This document shows positions 2,929 through 39,868 of a DNA stretch of 46,971 nt, piece after piece. The stretch is from a virus. How positions within the stretch are numbered: position 1 is the stretch's first letter; every line of letters starts with the position of its first letter. The translations under genes and the position numbers were made by a program. Under the pieces are notes generated by a model, which had not been told where the DNA came from, did not search any database, and saw only the letters and a program-made list of their open reading frames with translations. The stretch lies in IMG/VR virus record IMGVR_UViG_3300037245_000684, positions 1-46,971 of that record. One strand, given 5' to 3'.

Positions 2929-4467
2929 TTACCACCATTTCTCTGAAGTTTCGAAGGTTAATATTACCACATCTCCAGCATTAAGTCTCACATCTTCTGT
3001 TGAACCTAATATATTCTCTGCTGAGGTTATCGTTATTGTGCCTGTGCCTGAGTTGATTATCCTGAATGTCTGTCCATCAACGCCAGTAGGCAGGGTTACA
3101 GTGAATGTACCATTACAATACACTTGGTCATCTGTCACTAATATTGTCTGAGTTGCAGTGTAGCGAGAGGTGTTCTTTATCCGCCCTGACTCGCTCTTGA
3201 CCACGCCTGCCACCTCAAGGGCGTAGGTCGGGGCTGTGGTGTCGCCTATGCGTTGCTTTTGCGTTACGTTTGTTACGGCATTTAGCCTGAGTGATTGTGC
3301 TGCTGGCGTTGAGGCCATCGTGCCAAATATGATTGAGTCTGTTGCCTCTGCTGCTGCCGAAGCCCTTGATTGCGTGTCCAGTATTAGCGTGTTAGATGCG
3401 GCTGTTTGTCGTAGACCAGCACGATAGCCAAGGAATAGGTTCTGGCTGCCGCTATTGAATAACCCAGACCCCCATCCAATCCCGACATTAGAATTTCCAG
3501 AAGTACCTTCAGATAACGCACTTGTACCAATCGCCACATTGTTGACAGCGGCGGTTATTTTACCTAACGCCCCCTTTCCTATAGCCATATTGCTAGTGCC
3601 TGTTGTCAGTGAGTTTAATGCGTTTTCTCCCACTCCAACATTAAGTGAGCCTGTTGTTATAGCAGTTCCTGATCGTCTACCAATGAGCATATTAGAGAGG
3701 CCATCGGTTATCATTGAGCCTGCTGACGTACCGATAGCAACATTATACACACCTTTACCTGACGAACTTCCATCAAGAGCCATAAGGGCATTAAACCCAA
3801 TGCCTATATTATCTGTGGAATTGGAGGTTAAGGCGAAGTTACCAGCCCCCTCACCAATGAAAAGATTTCGCGAGCCGTAGCTGTGGTATCTTACCAAGCC
3901 TTGATAGATGTGGCCTAGCAGCGATGTGGTGGTTGGGACTGTAAGGTTGTCCGCTACAAAATCCCCATCAACAGTAACCTCGCCAAGCGTCCCGTCAAGG
4001 GTAATAAGGTCAGTGCCAAGCCCACCCAAAGCACTGATAGTACCGCCATCGGGGAGGGTCAAGTTGCCGGTTAGGGTGAGGTCATCGCCAATATTAGCTG
4101 ATGTTATAACTGTCCCCGTCCTTGACCAATAGCCGAGAATGCCGCTCGTTGGTGGAGTTGATACCAGCTTCTTCAGGCTGTCAGTATAAACGCCAGAATC
4201 AGCAGTAAGGCTATTTACTATAATATCACCAGCGGTCAACGTGCCGGTTGTATCTAGGTTGTCGATTGTCAGATTAACATCACCACCAAGCATGATTAAG
4301 TCGCCAAGTGTCCAGTCCATGACGACGTTCTGGTTGTCTATGTCGCGGAAAATAGTGAGTAGTTCAGATCCGTCAGGACTGAGCAGGTGCATTTCGTCCT
4401 CGACTACTTCCCAACCTGCGAAAGTAATGCTTGTAAATAGCATCAAAAATAGTATTAGTTTTTTCAT
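2929..4467 (-). CDS. Tail fibre-like protein with YadA-head-type repeats and signal peptide (512 aa)
   Basis: A signal peptide (MKKLILFLMLFTSITFAG) is followed by a beta-rich region. From about residue 200 to 360 there is a run of degenerate ~14-residue units built on the pattern NxxIGxxAL or NVAIGxSAL, the left-handed beta-roll seen in YadA/Hia heads and many phage fibres. The C-terminal ~80 residues are another beta domain ending in EKWW, with no intramolecular chaperone (S74) motif. It probably trimerises and contacts the cell surface. Its stop codon overlaps the upstream internal virion gene by 4 nt. An export signal on a phage fibre is unexpected. Confidence 0.8.
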   Translation of the reverse strand: MKKLILFLMLFTSITFAGWEVVEDEMHLLSPDGSELLTIFRDIDNQNVVMDWTLGDLIMLGGDVNLTIDNLDTTGTLTAGDIIVNSLTADSGVYTDSLKKLVSTPPTSGILGYWSRTGTVITSANIGDDLTLTGNLTLPDGGTISALGGLGTDLITLDGTLGEVTVDGDFVADNLTVPTTTSLLGHIYQGLVRYHSYGSRNLFIGEGAGNFALTSNSTDNIGIGFNALMALDGSSSGKGVYNVAIGTSAGSMITDGLSNMLIGRRSGTAITTGSLNVGVGENALNSLTTGTSNMAIGKGALGKITAAVNNVAIGTSALSEGTSGNSNVGIGWGSGLFNSGSQNLFLGYRAGLRQTAASNTLILDTQSRASAAAEATDSIIFGTMASTPAAQSLRLNAVTNVTQKQRIGDTTAPTYALEVAGVVKSESGRIKNTSRYTATQTILVTDDQVYCNGTFTVTLPTGVDGQTFRIINSGTGTITITSAENILGSTEDVRLNAGDVVILTFETSEKWW

Positions 4468-4979
4468 ACGTTTATACTCCTTGCCAATAAGTCCCGGCTC
4501 GGTGTAGTTCCAGGACCAGGCAATTTTGAAGCAGCAAGACCTATCGACGCAGCACCCAAAAGACCTTGTGACAAAGCCTTGAATTTAGATTGCTTACGTT
4601 TAGTTTTGCCGATAGCACGCTCAAGAGTAGCACTGTTTATCAATGATTCAGATTCAACCCGGCCAGATTCAAGACCAAAACCAATATCCTTGGCAATATT
4701 AGCCTTTGTTTCGGCCTCAATCACGAGTGGAGAACCGACATTTATCCGGATTCCACTGGCCGCAGCAGCCCCTTTTTGTTCTGCGAGCAACCTACGTCCA
4801 CGTTCGCCCTGTATCTTCGCCTTTTCGACACTGGCATCGCGTACCGCAACGGCGTTCTGTTCGTCAACATCAGCCCGGACATTAGCAATCTGCTCGGCTT
4901 GCTTGCCTTGCTGTATCGTGCTAGTGGCCTGCAATGCAGTTCCGGCGGCGGTAACTGCGAGTAATGTTTCAAGACCCAT
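4464..4979 (-). CDS. T7 gp14-like internal virion protein (171 aa)
   Basis: The protein starts MGLETLLAVTAAGTALQATST and continues as a long Ala/Gln/Glu/Arg-rich helix (IQQGKQAEQIANVRADVDEQ) with a Gly-rich central turn, the pattern of small internal core proteins of podoviruses. A weakly hydrophobic first 20 residues and another segment near residues 138-152 (LGAASIGLAASKLPG) could enter the host membrane during DNA ejection. It follows the nozzle gene directly and overlaps the fibre gene by 4 nt. There is no signal peptide, in contrast with both neighbours. The assignment rests on pattern and synteny. Confidence 0.65.
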   Translation of the reverse strand: MGLETLLAVTAAGTALQATSTIQQGKQAEQIANVRADVDEQNAVAVRDASVEKAKIQGERGRRLLAEQKGAAAASGIRINVGSPLVIEAETKANIAKDIGFGLESGRVESESLINSATLERAIGKTKRKQSKFKALSQGLLGAASIGLAASKLPGPGTTPSRDLLARSINV

Positions 4980-27372: not shown

Positions 27373-27491
27373 TTGACTTTCACCCGAAATAGGTTATTAT
27401 TATGTTATGCGACGTAGTACCACAAAATCAAAAGAAGTCATCCAGGGGCAATCCGGGCTCGCGCCCTTCCTGCGTCGCAACCCTGGGTGGC
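27373..27491 (+). promoter_or_regulatory. Promoter and pseudoknot-order leader of plus HNH gene 1
   Basis: TTGACT (27373-27378) and TATTAT (27395-27400) form a promoter with 16-bp spacing. In the leader, TGCGACG (27408-27414) pairs with CGTCGCA (27473-27479), and GTCATCCAGGG (27437-27447) pairs with CCCTGGGTGGC (27481-27491, two G-U pairs). GGGC-TCGC-GCCC (27455-27466) is a hairpin between them. The order a-b-c-c'-a'-b' is a pseudoknot. Confidence 0.6.
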
Positions 27492-27512
27492 TCTTATTTT
27501 GGGAGTCATACC

Positions 27513-28001
27513 ATGAAAAAAATACCACTCACTAAAGGACTGTCAGCGATAGTAGATGATGCCGACTACGAAGAACTAAGCCGCCATAAATGGTACGCTA
27601 TGAAAAACACCTACGGCGGCTTTCTGGCTAGAAGATCTACTTTTATAGACGGAAAACATGGCAAAGTATGGATGCACCGTTTTTTGTTGGGCCTTAAAAA
27701 AGGAGATAATATGGTTGGGGATCACATCAATCACAATACGCTTGATAATAGAAGATTTAATCTCCGCAAATGCACCCAAGGACAAAACCTTTGCAATATG
27801 AGTCCGAACAAAAACACAAGCTCTCAATACAAGGGCGTTAGCTTTAATAAACAATGCCGTAAATGGGACGCCAGAATCAGTAAGAATGGCGTGCAGCATT
27901 GTTTGCAGTTATTTGAAACAGAGGAACTTGCGGCACTTGCTTACAACGAAAAAGCAAAAGAGTTACATGGCGAATTCGCGCATTTAAATAAAATCAATTA
28001 G
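27513..28001 (+). CDS. HNH homing endonuclease with AP2 domain (162 aa)
   Basis: The ATG at 27513 (MKKIPLTKGLSAIVDDADYE) has a GGGAG site; an earlier in-frame ATG at 27402 would be inside the structured leader. The start 'IPLTKGLSAIVDDADYEELSRHKWYA' is shared with the gene at 39386. The HNH core is 'GDHINHNTLDNRRFNLRKC', with Asn where the family more often has Asp-Gly. An AP2-like domain follows ('SQYKGVSFNKQCRKWDARIS...LAALAYNEKAKELHGEFAHLN'). It splits the coiled-coil gene from the exonuclease gene. Confidence 0.92.
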   Translation: MKKIPLTKGLSAIVDDADYEELSRHKWYAMKNTYGGFLARRSTFIDGKHGKVWMHRFLLGLKKGDNMVGDHINHNTLDNRRFNLRKCTQGQNLCNMSPNKNTSSQYKGVSFNKQCRKWDARISKNGVQHCLQLFETEELAALAYNEKAKELHGEFAHLNKIN

Positions 28002-28011
28002 GAGTTATAAA

Positions 28012-28629
28012 ATGGAAACAAAGTACCCAGTCACGCATCATATGAAGCAGGGAAGCGAACTCTGGCATAATATTAAGCGAGGTAAGATAAGTTCCTCAAA
28101 CTTTCACATAGCAATCAGTACCGGCAAGGGCCGAAAAGACCTGCTGAAAACTCTACGTAATGAGCGAATGGGCGTAATTAGCTTAGATCGCTTCATTAGC
28201 GAGCCTATGAAACGTGGGACCGAGATGGAGCCTGAAGCCCGTGAATTCTACGAGAAATTAAACGGCTGCGAAGTCAAGCAAGTCGGCTTTATTGAAATGA
28301 GCGAATATATAGGTACAAGCACTGATGGCCTCCTGAATGACGATGGTGTACTGGAAATAAAAAACCCGAACTCATCAACTCACCTGGATTGGATTTTCGC
28401 CAACAAACTACCGATGACTCACAGGCATCAAGTGCAGGGCGGTTTATGGGTCACTGGTCGGCAATACTGCGATTTTGTGAGCTATGACCCAAGAGTTACC
28501 AAGAAACCGTATTGGTGCATCAGGGTCGAACGTGACGAAACTATTATCGCTGAATTAGATGTCAAGCTCGGCAAATTCGTTAATGAACTGAAAATGATAA
28601 TGGCCCAAATTGAAGGCCCGAAATTTTAG
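28012..28629 (+). CDS. YqaJ/lambda-exo-type recombination exonuclease (205 aa)
   Basis: Recognisable motifs: 'GSELWHNIKRGKISSSN' (14-30), 'RGTEMEPEAREFY' (68-80), 'IGTSTDGLL' with the catalytic Asp105, 'LEIKNPN' with Glu115 and Lys117, and 'HQVQGGLWVTGRQYCDFVSYDP' (139-160). This is the PD-(D/E)XK fold of YqaJ recombinases, which resect duplex ends 5' to 3'. It pairs with the ERF annealing protein that follows after an 11-nt gap, giving a two-component recombination system for replication and end joining. Confidence 0.92.
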   Translation: METKYPVTHHMKQGSELWHNIKRGKISSSNFHIAISTGKGRKDLLKTLRNERMGVISLDRFISEPMKRGTEMEPEAREFYEKLNGCEVKQVGFIEMSEYIGTSTDGLLNDDGVLEIKNPNSSTHLDWIFANKLPMTHRHQVQGGLWVTGRQYCDFVSYDPRVTKKPYWCIRVERDETIIAELDVKLGKFVNELKMIMAQIEGPKF

Positions 28630-28639
28630 GAGATTTACC

Positions 28640-29485
28640 GTGGAACAAGAACTAGTAGACAAGCAGACGGAAGTAAATGAATTGGAAGTATCGATCCCGA
28701 AACCGCAGGCGTTGGCCATAAACCCAGACGCACCGCTGATGGTTCAGGTCATGCAGGCTGTAGCTTCTGGTATCAAAATAGACACCGATACCATAAAAGC
28801 GATGCAGGATATAGTCCGACAAGAAAAAGACGATGCCGCAAAGCTGGCTTTTGCTACCAATTTTACTCTAGCACAGGCTGGTATAGGCGGTGTTGTAAAG
28901 ACAAGGAAAAATAAACAAACGGATAGTATGTATGCCGGGCTTGATGATGTTATTGAAATGTCAAAGGCCGTATGCTCTAAACATAATTTTTCGGTTACTT
29001 TCTCTGAAGGCTCGACCGAGGCTAAGGAGCATATCCGAATAATCGCTACCGTCTTACATAAAGATGGACATAAGGAACTGTATCATTATGACGTTCCTCT
29101 TGGCGGAAAAGGCATAAAGGGCGTTGTTAATATGACAGCGATCCACGCCAAAGCTACTTCTGTGTCGTATGGCCAGAGATATTTACTGTGTATGATCTGG
29201 AATATCCCCACAAAAGACAATGACGGCAATAGCGGCAATCCTGGTAACACCGACAAGCCCGGGCCTACTGTTGAACCACCAAACGAAAAAGAAACAGAAG
29301 TCTTGCAGTTAATCGCTGATAAAATCCCGCCAAAAGATGGGTATGTCGTTAGCTTGCGGAAAATAGGAGCTCTTTGTTTCGCTTCGTACAGTAAGTACCC
29401 TTACGATTTAACCGCTGTGACTGCTATCGCTGAATGGATCACGACTTCCCATCAAGATTCGCAGGTATATAACGACATAAGATAA
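28640..29485 (+). CDS. erf: ERF-family single-strand annealing protein (281 aa, GTG start)
   Basis: A GTG at 28640 follows TTAGGAGA; a longer reading to 28610 would begin within the exonuclease gene. 'KLAFATNFTLAQAGIGGVVKTRKNKQTDSMYAGLDDVIEMSKAVCSKHNFSVTFS' followed by 'IIATVLHKDGHKELYHYDVPL' and 'SYGQRYLLCMIWNIPTKDNDGN' are the signature of ERF proteins (P22 Erf type). They bind and anneal ssDNA, here partnered with the YqaJ nuclease. The C-terminal ~75 residues form a separate helical extension. Confidence 0.9.
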   Translation: MEQELVDKQTEVNELEVSIPKPQALAINPDAPLMVQVMQAVASGIKIDTDTIKAMQDIVRQEKDDAAKLAFATNFTLAQAGIGGVVKTRKNKQTDSMYAGLDDVIEMSKAVCSKHNFSVTFSEGSTEAKEHIRIIATVLHKDGHKELYHYDVPLGGKGIKGVVNMTAIHAKATSVSYGQRYLLCMIWNIPTKDNDGNSGNPGNTDKPGPTVEPPNEKETEVLQLIADKIPPKDGYVVSLRKIGALCFASYSKYPYDLTAVTAIAEWITTSHQDSQVYNDIR

Positions 29486-32829: not shown

Positions 32830-33273
32830 ATGAAGTATAGCACAAAAAGAAGTTTGCCGGGGAAAGTTAAGCCTCAGATAGTTGGCGAGCAGATCGAGAA
32901 ACTCAAAGCAAGGTTTGGGCATATAACCCCTGATATGCTCGTTAAAGAAGCTACCAAGAAAAGGTCACCTCTACATGGCTGCTTTACATGGGATGACAAA
33001 AAGGCCGGCGTATTACGACGATTAGACGAAGCTCGTTACTTGCTCCGCATGATTACCGTGGAAGTCGAAACAGAAGACGATCCTATTGTTACGAGGGCGT
33101 TCGTGTCGGTGACCGAGGAGTCAATTTATACCACGATAGAATCAGCACTCGCCGATGATGACATGCGAGAAAGCCTGTTGAATCAGGCAAAGAAAGAATT
33201 GCGGTCTTTTAAATTTAAGTATTCACAGTTGAAAGAATTGGCCGTTGTCTTTTCGGCTATTGAGAATGTATAG
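32830..33273 (+). CDS. 'SPLHxxFxWDD' phage protein directly upstream of the pentamer array (147 aa)
   Basis: The core 'ITPDMLVKEATKKRSPLHGCFTWDDKKAGVLRRLDEARYLLRMITVEV' (residues ~32-80) belongs to a widespread but uncharacterised phage family with the pattern SPLH..F.WDD..A....RL..AR.LiR. The N-terminus suggests a helix-turn-helix; the last ~40 residues are a basic helix ('LNQAKKELRSFKFKYSQLKE'). Its stop codon TAG at 33271-33273 is 1 nt before the first TCAG of the array, so array and gene are contiguous. It may be a partner of the array/220-aa protein. Confidence 0.75.
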   Translation: MKYSTKRSLPGKVKPQIVGEQIEKLKARFGHITPDMLVKEATKKRSPLHGCFTWDDKKAGVLRRLDEARYLLRMITVEVETEDDPIVTRAFVSVTEESIYTTIESALADDDMRESLLNQAKKELRSFKFKYSQLKELAVVFSAIENV

Positions 33274-33274
33274 C

Positions 33275-33694
33275 TCAGGTTCGTCGTGTTCCGGTTAGTT
33301 TCGTCACGTCAGTTAAGTCGGGATAAGGTGCGTTTGGGTAAGTTTGATTGCGTCTTGTCAGTCAAGTTGAGTTTTGCTCAGTCGAGGCTAGTTATGTTGT
33401 GTTGCGTTGAGTCAGTCGGGTTCAGGTGGGCTATGTTCAGTTGCGTTTAGTTTGGTTATGTCAGTTGGGTCGGGCTATGTCCAGTTCCGTTGCGTTATGT
33501 TCTGTCAGTCACGTCGCGTTAGGTTCAGTTATGATGCGTTGAGTTCAGTTTTGTCAGTCAAGTCGGGATAAGTAGTGTTGTGTTTAGTTAAGTCAGTCAA
33601 GTTATGACATGTAGCGTTCAGTTGAGTTAAGTTGATTTATGTTCCGTCAGTTATGTCGGGTTAAGCTGAGTTGCGGTACGTTCCGTCGAGTCAG
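33275..33694 (+). repeat. Pentanucleotide-period array: ten TCAG tetramers separating nine runs of (NYNNG)6-10
   Basis: The 420-bp stretch parses completely as TCAG-(NYNNG)n with n = 6, 9, 10, 9, 8, 9, 7, 10, 8 and a final TCAG. TCAG starts at 33275, 33309, 33358, 33412, 33461, 33505, 33554, 33593, 33647 and 33691. Of 76 pentamers, 74 end in G (exceptions TTTGA, TTGAT), 74 have a pyrimidine second, and 61 start with T; positions 3 and 4 are free. Units such as TCGGG, TTGCG, TTATG and TTCAG recur. All frames on both strands contain stops, so it is non-coding. It lies in one transcription unit between the 147-aa and 220-aa genes with no terminator visible. Confidence 0.9.
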
Positions 33695-33726
33695 TTAAAT
33701 TATAATTTTATTAAAGGGTTAGAAAG

Positions 33727-34389
33727 ATGGCAAAGAAAAAAGCAGTAGAAACAAAAATCGTAGAGATTCACGCATTGAATCGCAAACAGTTAACCGTTAA
33801 TATCGTTGGCGATACACCTTTATTCGTCCACCGGCTGCCTGCAAAGCTCAAGATCGAGTTTGAGGCAAGGAATATGGGTAAGGCAATGCCAAAGAACAAG
33901 GTCAGAGATAAGCAGGTTGAGTTCTGCGAATCCCTGTACTGGCTAGACAAGGCTGGCAATGAGATCGTTGCAAAGAAAGACGTTTCAAAGCATAAGTATT
34001 GGGGGTTCCCTGCGTCCGGCTTCAAGAAAGCAGCGATCAGTTCTTGCCGTGCATTCAAAAGTATTAAGATGACAGAAATGCGAGGAGCTTTCCATGTAAA
34101 CGGTCGATATGTAATGATCGAGGGATCGCCGAGAATCCAGCAAGAGCAGGGATGTGACGGTATCTGGGTTCGCGAAGGCGGCAAAGGACCTGGAACCGGA
34201 ACGCCAAATATCCGGTATCGTGCGGAATATCCTGAATGGTCTGCAAAGCTCAATATTACTTACAATGGTAATATGATTACAGCAGAGCAGATATTCAACC
34301 TCTTTAATACTGCCGGGTTCAGTGTTGGAGTTGGCGAGGATCGTCCAGATAAGAGCGGTGGGACCGGTGGAATGTTCCATGTAGAATAA
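33727..34389 (+). CDS. RAMP/Cas7-like phage protein downstream of the array (220 aa), hypothesised
   Basis: Visible features are 'VNIVGDTPLFVHRL' (24-37), 'YWGFPASGFKKAAISSCRAF' (91-110), 'MRGAFHVNGRYVMIEG' (118-133), 'NIRYRAEYPEWSAKLNITYN' (161-180) and 'FNTAGFSVGVGEDRPDKSGG' (193-212). The order TPL..H, then G.P.s.fK.A..s, then a C-terminal Gly-rich loop resembles RAMP proteins (Cas7, Csm3, Cmr), where these are an RRM strand, the 'PGSSLKGALRS' helix and the RNA-contacting G-loop. It belongs to a common uncharacterised phage family. The resemblance is by eye and needs structure prediction. The gene starts 32 bp after the array, with AAAGGG as ribosome site, and is followed by a terminator. 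Confidence 0.55.
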   Translation: MAKKKAVETKIVEIHALNRKQLTVNIVGDTPLFVHRLPAKLKIEFEARNMGKAMPKNKVRDKQVEFCESLYWLDKAGNEIVAKKDVSKHKYWGFPASGFKKAAISSCRAFKSIKMTEMRGAFHVNGRYVMIEGSPRIQQEQGCDGIWVREGGKGPGTGTPNIRYRAEYPEWSAKLNITYNGNMITAEQIFNLFNTAGFSVGVGEDRPDKSGGTGGMFHVE

Positions 34390-34394
34390 GTTCT

Positions 34395-34440
34395 AACCCC
34401 GTTAAGCTCCTGCGGATCGTTTCCGTGGGGGCATCTTTTA
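34395..34440 (+). terminator. Terminator after the RAMP-like gene
   Basis: CCCC (34397-34400) pairs with GGGG (34427-34430) around an inner CGGA-TCGTT-TCCG hairpin, followed by CATCTTTTA. It would end the operon that includes the array. The stem is interrupted, so efficiency is uncertain. Confidence 0.5.
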
Positions 34441-35134: not shown

Positions 35135-35191
35135 ATGCAAGGCTGGATAAAACTACATAGAAAGCTGATAGAATGCCACAAGGACGAATAA
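35135..35191 (+). pseudogene. Remnant start of a replisome-organiser-type gene (18 codons)
   Basis: ATG 35135, with AAGGA upstream, encodes MQGWIKLHRKLIECHKDE and stops at 35191. 'M.GWIKLHRKll' is the typical first line of phage replisome-organiser/initiator proteins, but it ends and the real initiator gene starts in another frame at 35173. It looks like a recombination joint between two initiator types, or a short translated leader coupling the initiator. Confidence 0.45.
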
Positions 35192-35895
35192 TACTAAAGT
35201 CAATATGCCAAAGCAAGAAATTGTCGCAGCTTAAAAGCGATGGCGCAAGACTTTTGTACACTTGGTTGCTCCCAAACTTGGACATTCAAGGGTGTTTCTC
35301 TGGCGACGAATATGTAATCATGGGCCAGATATTCACAAGGCTCAAAAAAGCACCGGACGAAGTGACTGGATTCCTCCAAGACTTGCACGATTGCGGTTTA
35401 ATTATCTGGTATGAAGCAGATGACGATAAATTTCTACATGTTCCTGATTTCGTTACCAAACAACCACGTCTAAACCCTATTAAAGAAGCTAAATCAACGA
35501 TTCCGATGCCAACTCCCGACCTACTCCCGACTAACTCCCGACCTACTCCAGACTTACTCCCCCCAAAGCAAAGCGAAGCAAAGGAAAGCAAAGCAAAGGA
35601 AAGTAAAGTTAAAGCGAAGGACGTTTCGTTTGAATCTAAAGATTCTTGTTCTTCGGTCGCCTCGCTCGAACTCAACTTCTACGATGGAGCGTGTGAGATA
35701 TTCAAGATCAAAAAGCCCGCTGACCATACAACACTGCGAAACGTAGCAGAGTTTTTAGGAAAGAAATACGAGTTTGATGATAAGATTTTCAAGAAAGTAC
35801 AGAAAGTTGCAATAGAAAGCGTTGGCGGTAATGTTCCAATAGCTCTTTTCATGAGCAGGATGAAATCAGAATTTGATTATCGGAAACCAGAATAA
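35173..35895 (+). CDS. Winged-helix replication initiator-like protein (240 aa)
   Basis: Residues 1-105 ('KSICQSKKLSQLKSDGARLLYTWLLPNLDIQGCFSGD...VTGFLQDLHDCGLIIWYEADDDKFLHVPDFVTKQPRLN') follow the common phage initiator winged-helix pattern in which 'sk.l..Ls..arlLyt.L...aD..Gr' is followed by a small beta wing. A Pro/Lys/Ser/Glu-rich linker (~110-150) precedes a C-terminal helical domain, the usual place for helicase-loader binding. It probably opens the origin and recruits host helicase; no phage helicase or polymerase is encoded. Confidence 0.75.
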   Translation: MPQGRIILKSICQSKKLSQLKSDGARLLYTWLLPNLDIQGCFSGDEYVIMGQIFTRLKKAPDEVTGFLQDLHDCGLIIWYEADDDKFLHVPDFVTKQPRLNPIKEAKSTIPMPTPDLLPTNSRPTPDLLPPKQSEAKESKAKESKVKAKDVSFESKDSCSSVASLELNFYDGACEIFKIKKPADHTTLRNVAEFLGKKYEFDDKIFKKVQKVAIESVGGNVPIALFMSRMKSEFDYRKPE

Positions 35896-39268: not shown

Positions 39269-39381
39269 CTTTCAGGAAATATATGTTATAGTTTGGATAG
39301 CTAGGGTATGCAACCCGAAAAGGCGGACACCTGAACCGCCCTGCTATTCAACTTATTTCAGGATAACTATTACAGGAATAG
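39265..39381 (+). promoter_or_regulatory. Promoter and structured leader of plus HNH gene 2
   Basis: TTGACT (39265-39270) and TATAGT (39287-39292) are 16 bp apart. Downstream are a closing stem ATAGC/GCTAT (39297-39301/39343-39347), hairpins GGGT-ATGCA-ACCC (39304-39316) and GGCGG/CCGCC (39322-39326/39336-39340). The loop of the latter has CCTGAA (39330-39335) complementary to TTCAGG (39357-39362), a possible pseudoknot. CTATT/AATAG (39367-39371/39377-39381) holds the ribosome site AGG in its loop. Confidence 0.5.
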
Positions 39382-39385
39382 TATT

Positions 39386-39868
39386 ATGAAACAAATCAAG
39401 TTAACACAAGGGAAGTTCGCATTAGTCGATGACGAAGACTATAAAGAACTGACGAAACACAAATGGTACGCTCATAGGAATAAAAGTACGTTTTATCCTA
39501 GAAGGAGCCTGCCCTATGTGGACGGAATACAACAGAAACAGTATCTTCATGTATTTCTTCTTGGTAGTTCGCCCAATAAAGAGATAGACCATAGAGATGG
39601 AAATGGACTTAACAACCAAAGGAACAACCTCCGTATGTGCACCCAATCTCAAAACTCAATGAATAGGCACGGCAGTCACGGTAAATGTAAATTCAAAGGT
39701 GTTTCATGGTATGAAGGCCCCAAAAGATGGAGATCGCAAATTGCAGTAGGAGGAAAACGTGAATATTTAGGGATCTTCTTTTGTGCAGTTAAAGCCGCAA
39801 AAGCATATGACAAAGCAGCTAAAGAATATTTTGGCGAGTTCGCAAACCTCAATTTTGAAGGAGATTAA
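39386..39868 (+). CDS. HNH homing endonuclease with AP2 domain (160 aa)
   Basis: Starts MKQIKLTQGKFALVDDEDYK; the HNH core is 'EIDHRDGNGLNNQRNNLRMC' (~70-90), and the AP2-like domain 'CKFKGVSWYEGPKRWRSQIA...KAAKAYDKAAKEYFGEFANLNF' fills the rest. The C-terminal half is closely similar to the minus-strand copy at 22512-23006, and the N-terminus to the copy at 27513. This pattern indicates spread of one family in this genome. It is bounded by its own promoter/leader and by a lipoprotein-like gene. Confidence 0.92.
   Translation: MKQIKLTQGKFALVDDEDYKELTKHKWYAHRNKSTFYPRRSLPYVDGIQQKQYLHVFLLGSSPNKEIDHRDGNGLNNQRNNLRMCTQSQNSMNRHGSHGKCKFKGVSWYEGPKRWRSQIAVGGKREYLGIFFCAVKAAKAYDKAAKEYFGEFANLNFEGD

Follow-up and report, generated by a model that had tools for sequence, protein, structure and literature searches.

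The module at positions 32830-34440 (+ strand) of the 46,971-nucleotide stretch of viral DNA analyzed here (the window) is, with a probability of roughly 0.9, a VIPR system encoded by the phage, with its guides in a staggered array. VIPRs as a kind have been known since 2026 (PMC13142463). In the main text of that preprint, the SUSP1 Vipr is described as a RAMP bound to vrRNAs composed of GGY-NN pentamers, and the SUSP1 VIPR as binding double-stranded DNA targets via the NN pairs, one base being skipped; for VIPRs in general, a vrRNA has 9-16 repeats and then a structured 3' tail that is conserved. Seven VIPR types and the accessory genes vap1-6 are distinguished there, SUSP1 carrying a type II VIPR, and VIPRs are proposed as both ancestors of the CRISPR RAMP proteins and minimal programmable DNA binders (PMC13142463). 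Recognized by its open reading frames, array spacing, and fold, the module of the window comprises, all on the + strand, an accessory gene of 147 codons' product length (vap, 147 aa, 32830..33273), a vrRNA-like guide array of GTY-NN pentamers in about nine segments (33273..33694), a gene for a predicted 220-aa Cas7-type RAMP (vipr, 33727..34389), and an intrinsic terminator-like hairpin with a T run at the module end (34406..34432; fold z -3.6). An earlier note on this DNA, made from the letters alone, had placed the 147-aa and 220-aa frames on either side of the array and a terminator behind them, and these elements are present as claimed; both frames are intact, and the array occupies the gap between them. 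The interval given in that note, 32830-34389, takes in all of the module but the hairpin.

The identity of the 220-aa protein rests on a structure prediction and on family membership. Its AlphaFold2 model (pLDDT 87, pTM 0.83) was compared with solved structures using Foldseek and VIA-align, and every chain listed belonged to a CRISPR RAMP protein or complex (Csm3, Csm5, Cmr subunits, type VII Cas7, and Cas7-11; Z up to 9.7); the fold library extends to April 2026 and does not contain 36pp, the solved SUSP1 Vipr. When a family profile built from the window protein and 47 relatives was run against PDB sequences, 36pp was the single convincing match (E 4.2e-11, nearly full length), and in PHROGs the window protein and SUSP1 gp39 fall into the same family, phrog_4652. 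Searches of Pfam, NCBIfam, and PADLOC at their cut-offs returned no family for either the 147-aa or the 220-aa protein. The three motifs that had been read in the order of RAMP strands, helix, and G-loop all contain invariant or nearly invariant residues of the family (G28, P31, and H35; G93, P95, F99, and K100; G197, G201, and R206). The protein is thus predicted, in keeping with the proposal of a RAMP/Cas7-like protein, to be a Cas7-type RAMP with an RRM core and a G-loop, homologous to Vipr.

The likeness to the Csm3/Cas7 backbone of type III and type VII CRISPR-Cas, which extends over residues 16-220 and probably includes an RNA-guided filament logic, could also be read as a class 1 CRISPR-Cas fragment acquired by a phage. 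The Cas7-type fold is what such an acquisition would leave, but the array lacks a repeat-spacer layout, its unit is 5 nt rather than 6 nt, no CRISPR array was found in the window, and in sequence the relative is Vipr, no CRISPR RAMP having matched and no similarity to Csm3/Cas7 having been detected; we regard this origin as having a negligible probability. Membership of the module in class 1 CRISPR-Cas was likewise rejected, as the locus holds a run of pentamers with no long direct repeats or spacers and resembles Cas5/6/7 in fold alone.

The VIPR reading also draws on the array. Within 33273-33694 lie 68 GTY triplets, 52 neighboring pairs of which are spaced by 5 or 10 nt, whereas 2000 first-order Markov shuffles gave 7.5 such pairs on average and never more than 20. 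Of the 70 pentamers making up the eight complete segments, 68 have G at position 1 (97%), 57 have T at position 2 (81%), and 68 have T or C at position 3 (97%), corresponding to 1.78, 1.01, and 1.05 bits, respectively, compared with 0.14 and 0.09 bits at the two NN positions; some triplets deviate (GAT, GGT, ATT). The five-nucleotide spacing recognized previously therefore stands far above shuffled sequence, although the period is imperfect, being broken by 4-nt GTCA steps that shift the register at 33308, 33357, 33411, 33460, 33504, 33553, 33592, 33646, and 33690 (+ strand). The last of these junctions opens an AT-rich end (33690..33717, + strand; GTTAAATTATAATTTTATTAAAGG), and the arrays of two related loci, L008 and L014, have a similar end. 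The array RNA has no stable secondary structure, its folding being at shuffle level (z -0.02), and a search by folding for a structured 3' tail at the array found none.

Nine guide segments are delimited on the + strand: 33273..33307 (NN = CA TC GT CC TA TC AC), 33312..33356 (AA GG AA GC TG AA TG GC TT), 33361..33410 (AA GA TT CA GA TA AT GT GC GA), 33415..33459 (GG CA GG AT CA GC TA TG AT), 33464..33503 (GG GG AT CA CC GC AT CT), 33508..33552 (AC GC AG CA AT GC GA CA TT), 33557..33591 (AA GG AA GT GT TA AA), 33596..33645 (AA AT AT GC CA GA AA GA AT CC), and 33650..33689 (AT GG AA GA GC AC CC GA). They are numbered 1 to 9 in this order, hold 7-10 pentamers each, and measure 39-54 nt with the junction included. 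Segments 2 and 7 share their three opening NN pairs, AA GG AA, in nearly identical letters (33312-33326 and 33557-33571), perhaps because the boundary is constrained, because there was a duplication, or because their targets are related. A register-shifting 4-mer is common to related arrays, namely GGCA in GGY arrays, GTCA in the window, L008, and L014, and GCCA in L075. Across 289 segments, the first NN after a junction is constrained (0.82 bits versus 0.1-0.2 mid-segment), and the boundary consensus is G-x-C-A-G-x-C-R-W. By comparison with the description in its main text, the array looks like the form that the preprint terms 'staggered', in which vrRNAs overlap (PMC13142463).

Set beside the SUSP1 VIPR (PDB 36pp), the module shares a homologous RAMP, a small accessory gene, pentamers of a fixed triplet plus NN, and a phage as its carrier. 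In the SUSP1 record, the two genes lie at 28031-28471 and 28474-29061 with pentamer tracts on either side; SUSP1 has separate vrRNAs with GGY scaffolds and 3' tails, whereas the window has one continuous array with GTY scaffolds and GTCA register shifts. The window's segments are mostly shorter than the 9-16 repeats given in the preprint's main text (PMC13142463), which, like the failure to find a structured tail, speaks against the VIPR reading, and the accessory proteins belong to different families (phrog_5926 in SUSP1, phrog_15946 in the window). Closer in organization are loci of Mycobacterium phages, Gordonia phages, and cyanophages, which have the same Vipr family, the same vap family, and a junction-cut array, but combine GGY scaffolds with GGCA junctions and mostly a GEWRP loop where the window combines GTY, GTCA, and GEDRP. 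VIPR modules are annotated merely as hypothetical in Mycobacterium phage Saal, two Gordonia phages (L004 and L005), and cyanophage Cy-LDV1, and in Cy-LDV1 arrays flank vap on both sides.

Protein family and array travel together. A pentamer array adjoins the vipr gene on the same strand in all five relatives first examined (UmaThurman, ODay, Saal, Cy-LDV1, and L001), and a scan of viral contigs yielded 80 further loci, most with arrays. Among 61 tabulated viral loci, the window included, vipr, vap, and array occur together in 57; two have no detected vap and two no detected array. Neither a fold lacking an RRM/ferredoxin-like core nor a lack of co-occurrence between genomes, each of which would have contradicted the earlier note, was thus observed. 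The order vap-array-vipr, as in the window, is found in six of the 61. The suggestion that the 147-aa protein is a third component is likewise borne out by its conservation beside vipr in nearly all loci, relatives of this phrog_15946 member occurring in nearly the same phages as those of vipr. Its model is a confident alpha/beta fold (pLDDT 94); a PDB fold search with that model found no resemblance to a solved structure, and BLASTP against the SUSP1 accessory protein found no relationship. A DNA-binding role for vap would follow from the preprint by analogy (PMC13142463).

The earlier reading, which holds in outline, had a filament-forming RAMP on a transcript of five-nucleotide period, an arrangement reported for the homologous SUSP1 VIPR (PMC13142463) and expected here by analogy; what could not be drawn from that reading is that the NN dinucleotides would be a guide, read against DNA with one skipped base. 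Evidence on this point comes from the relatives. Every guide was compared with all fetched loci at skips of 0, 1, and 2 bases, and among 516 guides of at least nine pentamers, two gave long near-perfect matches elsewhere, both only at skip 1: a guide of L077 against L068 (21/22 positions) and a guide of L063 against L026 (23/24), where the chance expectation for such matches is about 0.001. Each target is part of another phage's vipr gene and is matched in frame, the skipped base falling on codon position 3, and the own vipr of L077 and of L063 differs from the respective guide at 7 positions. Both matches cover all pentamers between two successive junctions, and since they fill exactly one junction-to-junction segment, one guide corresponds to one segment. 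By their sequence matches, the two look like anti-VIPR guides, a class also reported in the main text of the preprint (PMC13142463), and they independently back the 1-nt skip rule for staggered arrays. The L077 guide, the first of its array (4143-4629), covers conserved vipr codons and matches the vipr genes of 9 other loci with two mismatches; it is apparently a broad anti-VIPR guide.

Searches of viral contigs, related phages, and bacterial genomes turned up no credible target for the guides of the window itself. Segments 3, 4, 6, and 8 had zero exact matches in viral contigs, and segment 3 had none with up to three mismatches in 40 related phage records. Matches of segment 8 in bacterial genomes (one Maribacter gene and one Omnitrophus gene) were judged to be chance, as was a match of segment 2 in one phage of 68% G+C, which crosses a gene boundary. 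A codon-like strand signature in the NN pairs of the window was also discarded, 13.7% of composition-control simulations being as high. The absence of a found target speaks against the guided reading and, along with the unstructured array, would suit a structural or regulatory RNP that the RAMP forms on its own transcript (for autoregulation or packaging, for example), with NN as filler; filler, however, would not match the vipr genes of other phages at nearly all positions of two guides and at a single skip, and the homologous SUSP1 system has been shown by others to be guided (PMC13142463). We consider such an RNP very improbable and retain the guided VIPR system as the reading of the module.

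In the mechanism proposed for this VIPR system, vap, array, and vipr would be transcribed as a single unit, and the array RNA would be held by Vipr with one subunit per GTY-NN pentamer, as homology with the SUSP1 VIPR implies. The GTY triplets would serve as the scaffold read by the protein, and the NN pairs would jointly form the guide; each segment between two GTCA junctions would act as one guide matched to DNA as NNxNNx, one base being skipped, as sequence matches indicate for the two relatives and as others have demonstrated biochemically for SUSP1. The skipped base would usually be the third position of a codon. The likely role of the system would be to silence phages or mobile elements that compete for the same host. 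In this lineage, the second scaffold base is T rather than G and is paired with a Trp-to-Asp change at G-loop residue 205, which is proposed to help read that base.

The G-loop of the window's Vipr reads GFSVGVGEDRP, with Asp205; GEDRP also occurs in L008, L014, and L024, and GEWRP in most other loci. Among the loci that a targeted search for GED proteins brought up, L098 was the one addition, and its array is GTY. All five Asp205 Viprs go with T-dominant (GTY) arrays, and 118 of 120 with other residues go with G-dominant (GGY) arrays, an association with a Fisher probability of 9e-8 when kinship is ignored. In a tree calculated with residue 205 masked, the window groups with L008 and L098 in one clade, L014 is placed elsewhere on a long branch, and L024 branches from within the GGY loci, its sister L022 having Trp and GGY. 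The single clade reduces the independent switches to two or three instead of five; the branching thus points to at least two independent changes from GGY to GTY.

The GTY scaffold might instead mark a VIPR that has decayed or been repurposed in this lineage, having drifted toward A+T with no working change of specificity. Scaffold T fraction does correlate with low G+C (r -0.52), and the array contains the deviating triplets listed above; against this, the first and third triplet positions keep G and Y equally well, the junctions have changed in step to GTCA, both reading frames are undamaged, and T predominates at position 2 in a phage of 45% G+C while low-G+C L015, L035, and L086 stay GGY. 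Because of these three loci, G+C can be said to contribute to the scaffold without explaining GTY. We consider decay or repurposing very improbable. Two further loci, L068 (4611-5250) and L075 (1403-1946), have scaffolds that are mostly GTY or mixed GTC/GCC despite Trp205, the junctions of L068 being still GGC-type, then GAT; residue 205 is accordingly not the sole route to a change of scaffold. The chances seem about even that residue 205 helps to read the second triplet base (Trp, or His, Asn, or Gly, with GGY and Asp with GTY), the code having switched at least twice to give separate, possibly mutually exclusive scaffolds. The GTY scaffold and its tie to residue 205 are possibly new, being absent from the main text of the preprint, whose supplement mentions 'a related consensus', a wording that may or may not take in GTY (PMC13142463). 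With a natural GTY variant and one residue as the candidate switch, the way in which the scaffold is read becomes open to direct testing, and Vipr-guide pairs without cross-talk may be within reach.

As for the phage itself, positions 1-25000 of the window had no near relative in the phage collection, and the closest terminase relatives, about 38-40% identical, are mostly from gammaproteobacterial phages. An Rfam int-alpA RNA at 39294-39363, above the gathering score, suggests that the phage is temperate and has an integrase region. Two proteins of the HNH-AP2 type, similar to homing endonucleases, are encoded at 27402-28001 and 39386-39868, and a recombination pair (a YqaJ/RecE-like exonuclease and an Erf-like annealing protein) lies upstream of the module at 28012-29485. 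Lastly, two short tandem repeats (11/22 bp and 5/15 bp) lie side by side at 35511-35608 within a replication-initiator-like gene (35173-35895).
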